Below, in pieces: positions 41,526-50,190 of a stretch of 64,000 nucleotides of DNA. The notes beneath the pieces are model-generated. The model searched no databases, was not told the origin of the DNA, and saw nothing but the letters and a program-made list of their open reading frames with translations. This DNA comes from Ramlibacter sp. (lineage in GTDB: Bacteria; Pseudomonadota; Gammaproteobacteria; Burkholderiales; Burkholderiaceae_C): the NCBI GenBank assembly GCA_029237735.1, contig JAQZBU010000004.1, forward strand, positions 1 through 64,000, in the 5' to 3' direction. The position numbers were made by a program, and so were the translations under genes. Every line of letters begins with the position of its first letter. Within the stretch, counting starts at the first letter, position 1.

Positions 41526-41540
41526 GCAAGAGGTGTGCCC
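41526..41540 (-). promoter_or_regulatory. Sigma-54-type -24/-12 promoter match for operon A
   Basis: Read on the minus strand, the site is GGGCACACCTCTTGCG. GG and GC are spaced exactly 10 bases, and the -12 box TTGC is perfect. The -24 box GGCACA differs from GGCACG in one base. Transcription would start near 41514, about 40 bases before the dioxygenase start codon. The activator gene is divergent. Confidence 0.65.
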
Positions 41541-41654
41541 ATGGCCGTAGTCCGCGGGTAAGCCCTAGGAAGAAGCCGCAAATTGCCCCCCCGACGCGCG
41601 AATCGGGCCCCGCGGCGCCAGTCGCGGGTGGAATCCCGCAAGTTCACGGAATGG

Positions 41655-41714
41655 GAATTCAGAATTTCGGGAAACCCCCCTTTCCACGCCAGGCCGAATT
41701 TCATAAATTTCGGC
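41655..41714. promoter_or_regulatory. Candidate activator binding sites upstream of operon A and the regulator gene
   Basis: A 22-bp imperfect palindrome at 41693-41714 (18 of 22 positions symmetric) abuts the regulator start codon. On the minus strand it reads GCCGAAATTTATGAAATTC at its beginning. A related GAAATTC element lies at 41655-41673. The 19-base core matches 17 positions of a site at 50140-50158 upstream of operon B. Its position is about 180-200 bases upstream of the operon A start site. Confidence 0.6.
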
Positions 41715-43529
41715 ATGACCCTGCGCCCTCCTTCCGCCGTCAAGCCAACGATCCGGATTCCCGACGTGCTGGCCGACATGAACCTGCCGGCCGTGCGCGA
41801 CTTCAGCTCGCGGCTGCGGTTCAACCCGGAAGAAGGCCGCATCTGGCTGGACGACCGCCGCGTGCTGCTGATGCACGCGGAAGCTTTCTCCAGCCTGCGC
41901 GACGAACTGATCGCCTCGCTGGGCTGGGACACCGCACGGGGCCTGCTCACGCGCATCGGCTACGCCGCCGGCTGCCGCGACGCCGACCTCGCCCTGCGGG
42001 TGGCGCCGCCCAACACCAGCATCGAGACGATCGTTCGCTCGGGCGCGGTGCTGCATGCGCTGCAAGGCTATGTGCTGCCGGAGATCAGCCGCGACGGCCC
42101 GATCAACCCGGCCTCGGAGGACTACGTCGGCGAGTGGATCTGGAAGAATTCGCTCGAGGACGAAGGCCACGTGGCGGCCCATGGGGTCGATGGCCAGGCG
42201 GCTTGCTGGACCGAGGTGGGCTACAGCTCGGGTTACCTGAGCACCTGCGCCGGCCGCCGCATCCTTGTGCGCGAGGTCGAGTGCCGCGCGCAGGGAGCGC
42301 CGCATTGCCGCAACGTCGCCAAGCCGGTGTCGCGCTGGGAAAACGCCGAGGAAGACCTGCGCTTCCTGGAGCCGCAACCGCGCCCGCCGGAACGCGTGTT
42401 CGGCGGCTTCCGGCCTGCCCCGGCGGCGGAGCCCGCGGTAGCGCCGGCCGCGACGCCGGTGGCGCCGGACGACGCCCACGGCCGCGCCCTGGTCGGCGCG
42501 TCGGCGGCGTTCCATGTGCTACGGCACCAGATCCTGCGAGTCGCCCCCACCAATGCGACGGTACTGCTGCTCGGCGAAAGCGGCGTCGGCAAGAGCCTCG
42601 TGGCGCGCGAGATCCATCGCTGCAGCCGGCGCGCGGCCGGTGCCTTCGTGGAGATCAACTGCGCCGCGATCCCGGAAGCGCTGGTCGAGTCGGAACTGTT
42701 CGGCGTCGAGCGCGGCGCCTACTCCGGCGCCACCAGCGCCCGGCCGGGACGCTTCGAGGCCGCCAACGACGCCACGTTGTTCCTCGACGAGATCGGAACC
42801 CTGAGCCTGACGGCGCAGGGCAAGCTGCTGCGCGTGCTGCAGACCGGCGACCTCGAGCGCCTGGGCAGCAACCGCACCATCCGCACCGACGTGCGCGTGC
42901 TGGCCGCGACCAACGAAGACCTGAGCGAGGCGGTGCGCGAGGGGCGCTTCCGCGAAGACCTGTTCTACCGCCTGAATGTCTTTCCGCTGGTGATCCAGCC
43001 GCTACGCGACCGGCGCGAGGACATCCCGCTGCTGACCGAAGTGCTGCTGGAACGCTTCTCGCGCCGGCACGGCCGCGCCATCCCGGGCATCACCCACCAG
43101 GCGTTGCGGGCCATCCTGCACCACCGCTGGCCGGGCAACGTGCGCGAGCTGGAGAACGTGCTGGAGCGCGGCGTGATCCTGGCGCAGGACGGCCAGATGC
43201 TCGACGTGCACCACCTGCGCAGCGCCAGCGGTGGCCTCAGTCCCTCGTCATGGCTGGGCGTGGGCCGGGGCGGCGACCTGGAGCCCCACGACACCGAAGG
43301 CGGCGGGACAACCGAAGCGCCGGGGCCGGCGTCCATGACCGACGTCGCGCGCGGCCTGCTGCGCGACGGCCCCGCCTCGATGGAGGCGCTGGAGGACGCG
43401 ATGGTGCAGATGGCGCTTGACCGGGCCGGCGGCAACGTCTCACGCGCCGCCACTCTGCTGGGCATGACGCGCGCCCAGATGGACTACCGGGTCAAGAAGC
43501 TGCAGCAGGAGCGCGCGCCGGAGCAGTGA
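41715..43529 (+). CDS. V4R-domain sigma-54-dependent activator (XylR/DmpR type)
   Basis: A 604-residue NtrC-family activator. Residues about 15-200 are an XylR-type sensory region ending in a V4R domain with [14 protein letters not shown] proline/alanine linker of about 50 residues follows. The AAA+ domain has Walker A GESGVGKS near residue 287, the sigma-54 contact loop GAYSGA near 334 (instead of GAFTGA) and Walker [11 protein letters not shown]. The C-terminal Fis-type helix-turn-helix is [20 protein letters not shown]. XylR/DmpR proteins bind an aromatic effector directly. The start at 41715 is chosen because the family begins at this point. A palindrome covers the sequence just before it, suggesting self-repression. 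It is divergent from operon A. Confidence 0.93.
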
Positions 43530-43541
43530 GCACCTGCGTGC

Positions 43542-49224: not shown

Positions 49225-50025
49225 CTAGCGGACGGCAGACTGGTCGAAGCGGCAGCGCACACTGCCCAGCGCGCCCAGGTGAGCGTGGACCACGTCGCCG
49301 GGCTGGACCGGCACCATGGGCCCGAGGGCGCCGGAGAGGATCACCTCGCCGGCGCGCAAGGGCTGGCTGCGCGCGGCCATCGTGCGGGCCAGCCAGTAGG
49401 CCGCGCGCAGCGGGTGCCCCAGGCAGGCGGCACCTGTGCCGACCGAGACCGTGCGCCCATTGATGCTCATTTCCATGCCGACAGCCTCCAGCGCGACGCT
49501 GCCGATGGCCAGCGGCTGGTCGCCCAGCACGTACAGTCCGCAGGAGGCGTTGTCGGCCACCGTGTCCACCAGGGTGATCTTCCAGTCGGCGATGGCGCTG
49601 TCGACGATCTCCAGCGCCGGCAGCGCATGCGCGATGGCGGCCAGGAACTCGGCCCACGATGGCACGCCGGTCGGCAAGTCACGGCCGACGACGAAGGCCA
49701 CCTCCGCCTCGACCTTGGGCTGCAGCAGGCGAACCGACGGGATCTCGTCGCCGCTGAGGAATTCCATGTCGTCGAACAGCACGCCGAAGTCGGGCTGGTC
49801 CACGCCGAGTTGCAGCTGCACGGCTTTGGAGGTCAGGCCCACCTTCTTGCCGACGATGCGCCGGCCCGGCTCGTCCAGCCGCGCGCGGACATTCAGTCCG
49901 GCCACCGCATAGGCCGCATCGAGCCCGGCGATGTCATGGCTGGCGGAAATGGGCGGGATGGCGCGGCGCTGCGCGCGCGCCTCATGCAGCGCTCGGGCGG
50001 CGGCTTGCACGGCGGGTTCGGTCAT
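49225..50025 (-). CDS. 2-hydroxypenta-2,4-dienoate (2-keto-4-pentenoate) hydratase
   Basis: A 266-residue FAH-fold hydratase of the DmpE/BphH/HsaE type. It shows GKKVGLTSKAVQLQLGVDQP with DFGVLFDDME, the metal site LQPKVEAEVAFVVGRDLP and ALEIVDSAIADWKI. It hydrates the dienoate released by the C-C hydrolase. The start at 50025 (MTEPAVQAA) has AGGAGA seven bases upstream. The longer frame would run through the promoter. First gene of operon B. Confidence 0.93.
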   Translation of the reverse strand: MTEPAVQAAARALHEARAQRRAIPPISASHDIAGLDAAYAVAGLNVRARLDEPGRRIVGKKVGLTSKAVQLQLGVDQPDFGVLFDDMEFLSGDEIPSVRLLQPKVEAEVAFVVGRDLPTGVPSWAEFLAAIAHALPALEIVDSAIADWKITLVDTVADNASCGLYVLGDQPLAIGSVALEAVGMEMSINGRTVSVGTGAACLGHPLRAAYWLARTMAARSQPLRAGEVILSGALGPMVPVQPGDVVHAHLGALGSVRCRFDQSAVR

Positions 50026-50079
50026 GGTTTGTCTCCTGGCGGTCCATCTGCCGGCTCGGGCCGGGTCTGTCCACTCCAT

Positions 50080-50095
50080 AGCGAGAGCCGTGCCA
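50080..50095 (-). promoter_or_regulatory. Sigma-54-type -24/-12 promoter match for operon B
   Basis: The minus strand reads TGGCACGGCTCTCGCT. The -24 box TGGCACG is perfect, the GG-to-GC spacing is 10 bases, and the -12 box is TCGCT with one change from TTGCT. Transcription would start near 50068, about 43 bases before the hydratase start codon. Confidence 0.75.
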
Positions 50096-50127
50096 CGCAA
50101 AATCGGCCTGCGCGGGGCCAGTCAGCG

Positions 50128-50190
50128 CCTGAAATTCAGGATTTCATGAATTTCGGCCCGGCGGCGCTTGATCGCCTACCGAATTTTCGG
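50128..50190. promoter_or_regulatory. Three palindromic GAAATT-type sites upstream of operon B
   Basis: CCTGAAATTCAGG at 50128-50140 is a perfect palindrome. The site at 50140-50158 reads GCCGAAATTCATGAAATCC on the minus strand and matches 17 of 19 positions of the site at 41696-41714. CCGAATTTTCGG at 50179-50190 has 5-bp palindromic arms. They lie about 60-120 bases upstream of the expected start of operon B, the usual range for sigma-54 activators. Confidence 0.65.

Follow-up and report, generated by a model that had tools for sequence, protein, structure and literature searches.

A predicted sigma-54 regulon in Ramlibacter sp.: two catabolic operons share a palindromic site, one copy of which abuts the start codon of a XylR/DmpR-type activator gene

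The locus described here lies in a 64,000-nucleotide stretch of Ramlibacter sp. DNA (assembly GCA_029237735.1, contig JAQZBU010000004.1, positions 1 to 64,000), referred to below as the window. It comprises a XylR/DmpR-type activator gene and two predicted operons, A and B, and its closest described counterpart in layout is the 2-hydroxybiphenyl system of Pseudomonas azelaica (hbpCA, hbpD). According to the excerpted text of PMC3040749, HbpR acts on PC and PD, the promoters of two operons, and the hbpR gene is divergent from hbpCA. XylR of plasmid pWW0 also has a divergent layout with a sigma-54 promoter (Ps/Pr), and it lowers its own transcription through this region, as the available section of PMC3469447 describes. 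The sites of the subclass are given in the consulted part of PMC6449761 as pairs of 16-20-nt palindromes; 29-42 nt separate the two centres, and the pair is located 100-200 nt upstream of the -24/-12 promoter.

As in the HbpR system, the activator gene of the window lies upstream of the first operon in divergent orientation, and the same site recurs at the second. It is very probable that an enhancer-binding activator of the XylR/DmpR subclass, wired like HbpR, controls both operons. The likeness to HbpR is one of layout. The products of hbpC (extradiol dioxygenase) and hbpD (C-C hydrolase) have counterparts of their kind in the window, whereas the hydroxylase of the window is of the two-component HsaA type and its second operon holds the lower pathway and the reductase. 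Compared with XylR of pWW0, the sensor is 32.9% identical and the site sequence differs. The divergent target of XylR is, moreover, a second regulator gene, xylS, whereas the window activator gene is divergent from catabolic operon A. The first-pass annotation of this DNA had called the regulon divergent, which holds for the activator and operon A but not for the operons themselves, as A and B are read in the same direction.

One line of evidence is a 19-base site present once in each of the two intergenic regions, which are approximately 8.4 kb apart. Written on the minus strand, as both operons are read, its sequence is GCCGAAATTTATGAAATTC at 41714-41696 and GCCGAAATTCATGAAATCC at 50157-50139; the copies share their orientation and 17 of 19 bases, and a pattern search bore out the site as the first-pass annotation had proposed it. 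The search pattern was derived from the two sites themselves. In the window it gave three matches at up to three mismatches, where 0.01 would be expected; the third is the opposite arm of the copy near operon A. The genome searched was the organism's own draft assembly (5.75 Mb, 253 contigs, 94% complete, 8% contaminated). Random occurrence of the motif had been named as a point to check, and nothing but the two sites was found there at zero to two mismatches; three further places appeared at exactly three mismatches (reversed control, 0). The 16-base core ATTTCATRAATTTCGG has two exact matches in this genome and 40 more, all with three mismatches, against four places for its reversed control. 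These 40 include the other arm of site A1 at 41694-41709, and some of them could be weak sites elsewhere in the genome.

A pattern-free comparison of the two intergenic regions returned a best common 19-mer of 17/19, a value reached by 1 of 1000 dinucleotide shuffles. The same test gave 2/1000 for 16-mers, 7/1000 for 22-mers and 242/1000 for 12-mers. The half-site AWTTTCGG, a pattern picked after the sites had been seen, occurs four times in the 64 kb (both strands), always in the two regions and in the same orientation; four copies are ordinary in themselves (15/100 shuffles), and only their placement is unusual. A general repeat search of the regions found a GC-rich palindrome in A and a dyad in B, and no direct repeats in either. 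Each region holds one good dyad (A1 or B1) and one weak partner (A2 or B2), with a half-site spacing of 43 in region A and 34 in region B. The centre of A1 is 164.5 bases from the -24 G.

The activator contains XylR_N, V4R, sigma-54 AAA+ and Fis helix-turn-helix (HTH) domains, all four above the Pfam cut-offs, in agreement with its earlier designation as a V4R/XylR-type protein. Its relatives of solved structure are CapR (the best match, which we take to be DmpR-like), a PoxR-like phenol regulator and MopR. These features assign it to the XylR/DmpR subclass of sigma-54 activators. It is the sole XylR_N protein found in its genome, where one RpoN and 15 matches to the sigma-54 activator domain, ten of them strong, were detected.

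Related activators provide a second line of evidence. Matches were present in 73 of 299 searched genomes, and 29 loci besides the organism's own were sampled, one per genome; some come from the same genus, so that the counts are partly dependent on one another. A divergent -24/-12 site (up to three mismatches, within 500 bases upstream) accompanies 26 of the 29, compared with three when the opposite strand of this DNA served as control. The 16-base core is found upstream of eight relatives at up to four mismatches (shuffle mean 0.87; 0/100 shuffle sets reach eight), of two at up to three mismatches (reached by 1/100 shuffles), and of none of the 29 at up to two. Together with the uniqueness of the site in its own genome at up to two mismatches, the 26 divergent sites and eight weak motifs support the wiring of one activator to two operons that had first been proposed. 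For the sensor, no match at E 1e-30 was obtained in three genomes of the same genus. A scan of genome contigs for the activator gave 30 loci that are AAA+ relatives (35-56% identity); these were left out of the counts, and only one, L048, was compared further. A search for plasmid copies of window DNA 40500-43600 returned six records, none covering more than 15%.

Relatives of the BphC-like dioxygenase of operon A are rare: at E 1e-50 they occur in 6 of 399 genomes within the order, and at E 1e-70 in 4 of 369 within the class, both counts taking in the organism's own genome. Nine such loci were examined in fetched stretches, and two also contain an activator relative: genome G643 and a plasmid of Diaphorobacter sp. 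HDW4B. Divergent from the G643 activator, which shares 49% identity across 583 residues, is a run comprising flavin reductase, hsaA, mhpD, aldehyde dehydrogenase, aldolase, bphD and bphC; a divergent sigma-54 match there, TGGCATACGACTTGCT, has two mismatches. The Diaphorobacter activator (40% over 556 residues; shorter, and badly aligned in the sensor) lies divergently next to bphD, bphC, hsaA, hydratase and flavin reductase, and its match, TGGCACGTGGATTGCA, has no mismatches. The same kinds of enzymes that form one run at these two loci form two in the window; therefore, the second promoter of the window, and with it the second site, may be derived. At another locus (L088, genome G1027), the BphC relative was read with two internal TAA codons. 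The sigma-54 contact loop reads GAYSGA in the window activator (window positions 42489-42989) versus GAFTGA for the subclass; among the 29 relatives it is GAFTGA in 13, GAYTGA in 12 and not found by the search expression in four, and in Diaphorobacter it is GAFSGA.

Promoter candidates were sought with the consensus TGGCACG-N4-TTGCW. The candidate of operon B, TGGCACGGCTCTCGCT, is the best match in the window and the only one with a single mismatch. The genome thus has an RpoN as well as candidate target promoters of the -24/-12 type, that of operon A being a weak sequence match. Their GG-N10-GC elements had been placed about 40 bases before the first genes; the candidates exist, but their -12 GC lies 50 and 55 bases ahead of the start codons. 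At up to three mismatches, the consensus occurs 94 times in the window, with 137 expected.

A number of observations weigh against control of both operons by this activator. The promoter candidate of operon A, GGGCACACCTCTTGCG, is a poor match and ordinary by itself. A genome-wide -24/-12 scan, which the first-pass annotation had put forward as a check, showed no excess at up to one mismatch (67 places versus 64 for the reversed control), so that a -24/-12 match carries no weight by itself. Both partner sites are weak: A2 was not reported by the dyad scan, and neither A2 nor B2 is a convincing dyad. The centre of B1 is only 48.5 bases from the -24 G, versus the usual 100-200. The XylR site consensus, TTGANCAATTNATCAA, is matched at best with five mismatches in region A (reached by 155/500 shuffles) and four in region B (10/500). 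No match to an IHF pattern with up to two mismatches was found between the enhancers and promoters, and no sigma-70 promoter for the activator was detected by consensus in 41400-41800. In G643 and Diaphorobacter, the promoter regions lack the window motif at up to four mismatches. So do the 500 bases upstream of four plasmid relatives, namely those of Burkholderia vietnamiensis G4 (the closest sensor of the four, 51%), pWW0, Pandoraea pnomenusa and Variovorax PBL-E5. Only pWW0 among these has a divergent -24/-12 match at up to three mismatches, and its control strand also gives three. In B. vietnamiensis G4 and Variovorax PBL-E5, the upstream neighbour reads the same way as the activator; the divergent layout is not universal among relatives.

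The copy of the site near operon A abuts the activator start codon exactly as first described, the A1 palindrome spanning the last 22 bases ahead of the ATG. A Shine–Dalgarno-like match of at least four bases precedes 12 of 13 other genes compared (from the 18 in the set), the exception being the aldo/keto reductase gene with GAG only. No Shine–Dalgarno sequence is found at the activator ATG at 41715, and the alternative starts GTG 41766 and ATG 41778 have three-base matches only. The activator may therefore be poorly translated or leaderless. As A1 covers the bases directly before the ATG, its occupancy most likely lowers transcription of the activator gene, by analogy with XylR. A further, tentative and rather doubtful proposal is that the activator mRNA is leaderless and starts at the ATG, with a -10 element (CATAAA/ATAAAT, 41702-41708) in the middle of the enhancer. 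The palindrome would then be the enhancer of operon A, a repressor site and the core promoter of the activator at once, and binding would fully shut the activator gene while turning on both operons. CATAAA with TTTCCA 15 bases upstream agrees with only 8 of 12 sigma-70 positions, counted by eye.

The first-pass annotation had allowed for self-repression of either translation or transcription, and the translational form leads to one of three rival explanations: that a hairpin of the palindrome in the mRNA hides the ATG. The palindrome is indeed directly 5′ of a start codon that lacks a Shine–Dalgarno sequence. Its folding energy is ordinary, however (z -0.98; 32/200 shuffles equally stable), and the same sequence stands at promoter B, away from any start codon. 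Translational control was thus rejected, the transcriptional form is favoured, and we give the hairpin very little credence. It is similarly hard to credit that the palindrome serves some other transcription factor as its operator, such as one of the LysR or TetR type, and that the sigma-54 sites are chance matches. The commonness of the -24/-12 consensus by chance in a GC-rich genome, a motif that is unlike the textbook XylR site and absent from the four plasmid relatives, and a LysR gene at 26774-27757 would all fit this explanation. Against it, the site abuts the gene of the one XylR_N activator that the genome search detected, weak versions occur upstream of eight of the 29 relatives, the best promoter match of the window is located behind the shared site, and G643 and Diaphorobacter repeat the layout although their DNA differs.

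An alternative that is somewhat less improbable, but still unlikely, is that only one operon is driven by sigma-54, B having the stronger promoter, while the other site does no more than repress the activator or is left over from a rearrangement. The three mismatches of promoter A and the unusual nearness of B1 to its promoter point in this direction, as does the single divergent run of enzymes in G643 and Diaphorobacter, which would make the second site of the window a derived one. Yet the oxygenase and its reductase are split across the operons, so that both would be needed at once, and the pWW0 Ps region, included for control, has three mismatches by the same measure, but its opposite strand likewise has three. 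Control of both operons by the one activator remains the preferred explanation.

The genes of the predicted operons are listed in Table 1. They number 11 and 7, in agreement with the 18-gene set first described, provided that each operon runs to its last gene, as the spacing of open reading frames (ORFs) suggests. The oxygenase, ring-cleavage dioxygenase and hydrolase are encoded in A, and the flavin reductase and lower pathway in B. The flavin reductase probably works with the HsaA-like oxygenase, and their split across the operons gives a functional reason for common control. A longer ORF, on this strand but in a different frame, overlaps the reductase gene. In NCBIfam, the oxygenase, dioxygenase and hydrolase match HsaA, BphC and BphD best, yet all three scores are below the curated cut-offs (302.7 of 450, 297.3 of 366.45 and 412.5 of 462.15 bits, respectively). 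The substrate is therefore probably another, substituted phenol. At the end of operon B, the sulfatase gene adjoins that of a lactonase-like metallo-hydrolase, and the substrate could be taken up in the form of a sulfate ester or lactone. Within operon A, we take the genes for MMPL and BNR to correspond to COG1033 and COG4447. In other betaproteobacteria, a DUF1302 protein gene with PF07044 (DUF1329), COG1033 and COG4447 genes is predicted to be under AphR, AphS or AphT control, according to the excerpt of PMC6449761. Beyond operon B, a second cluster (50195-62096) encodes three FAD_binding_2 proteins, two Asp/Glu racemase-like proteins, an isochorismatase, MmgE/PrpD and three TctC binding proteins.

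Table 1. Features of the predicted regulon in the window (UAS, upstream activating sequence).
Feature	Positions	Strand	Basis or remark
Activator gene, XylR_N-V4R-sigma-54 AAA+-Fis HTH, 604 residues from ATG 41715	41715-43529	+	Pfam, translation, solved relatives
A1, candidate UAS (distal enhancer), 22-base palindrome GCCGAATTTCATAAATTTCGGC	41693-41714		Abuts activator ATG; 9/11 pairs, dyad scan
A2, weaker candidate site with half-site AATTTCGG (41663-41670)	41653-41671		Poor dyad
B1, candidate UAS, 24-base dyad GAAATTCAGGATTTCATGAATTTC (50131-50154) overlapping the 19-mer (50139-50157, minus)	50131-50157		10/12 pairs
B2, weaker candidate site CCGAATTTTCGG	50179-50190		
Operon A -24/-12 promoter candidate	41525-41540	-	3 mismatches
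Operon B -24/-12 promoter candidate	50080-50095	-	1 mismatch
Operon A, 11 genes	27769-41475	-	Pfam, NCBIfam, ORF spacing; predicted extent
BphC-like dioxygenase	40546-41475	-	Operon A
HsaA-like oxygenase	39291-40490	-	Operon A
DUF1302	37523-39184	-	Operon A
DUF1329	36124-37488	-	Operon A
BNR	35045-36127	-	Operon A
MMPL	32596-35058	-	Operon A
BphD-like hydrolase	31684-32544	-	Operon A
Aldo/keto reductase	30708-31676	-	Operon A
TRAP DctP	29629-30675	-	Operon A
DctQ	29067-29645	-	Operon A
DctM	27769-29070	-	Operon A
Operon B, 7 genes	43542-50025	-	Predicted extent
MhpD-like hydratase	49225-50025	-	Operon B
Acetaldehyde dehydrogenase	48283-49215	-	Operon B
4-Hydroxy-2-oxovalerate aldolase	47247-48269	-	Operon B
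Flavin reductase	46697-47236	-	Operon B
TctC	45732-46700	-	Operon B
Metallo-beta-lactamase fold	44855-45685	-	Operon B
Sulfatase	43542 to about 44858	-	Operon B, last gene

From these features we infer the following course of events. An aromatic effector, probably the phenolic substrate, would bind the XylR_N/V4R sensor, upon which the activator would form an ATPase oligomer on the enhancers built around the 16-base core, A1 and B1, perhaps assisted by the weaker neighbours A2 and B2. DNA looping would carry the activator to the sigma-54 polymerase at the two candidate promoters, and operons A and B would be transcribed together. The joint pathway would consist of a two-component hydroxylase (oxygenase from A, reductase from B), extradiol ring cleavage and C-C hydrolysis from A, and the hydratase, aldolase and acylating aldehyde dehydrogenase from B, with transport genes besides. 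Occupancy of A1 would, most likely, also reduce the activator's own transcription.

The design is familiar in that it joins the wiring of HbpR, one divergent activator and two promoters, to the self-control of XylR, here in a new pathway. What is unusual is the sequence of the site, an enhancer that abuts the start codon of a gene lacking a Shine–Dalgarno sequence, and the short distance between B1 and its promoter. The locus is a well-supported addition to the XylR/DmpR/HbpR group; its regulon spans two operons, has a site that departs from the textbook XylR sequence, and covers a pathway that combines an HsaA-type hydroxylase with BphC/BphD-type cleavage. An uncharacterised set of 18 genes would thereby be tied to one inducer, making the activator a ready sensor candidate, and the site at the start codon offers a compact test of how activators of this kind cap their own level.

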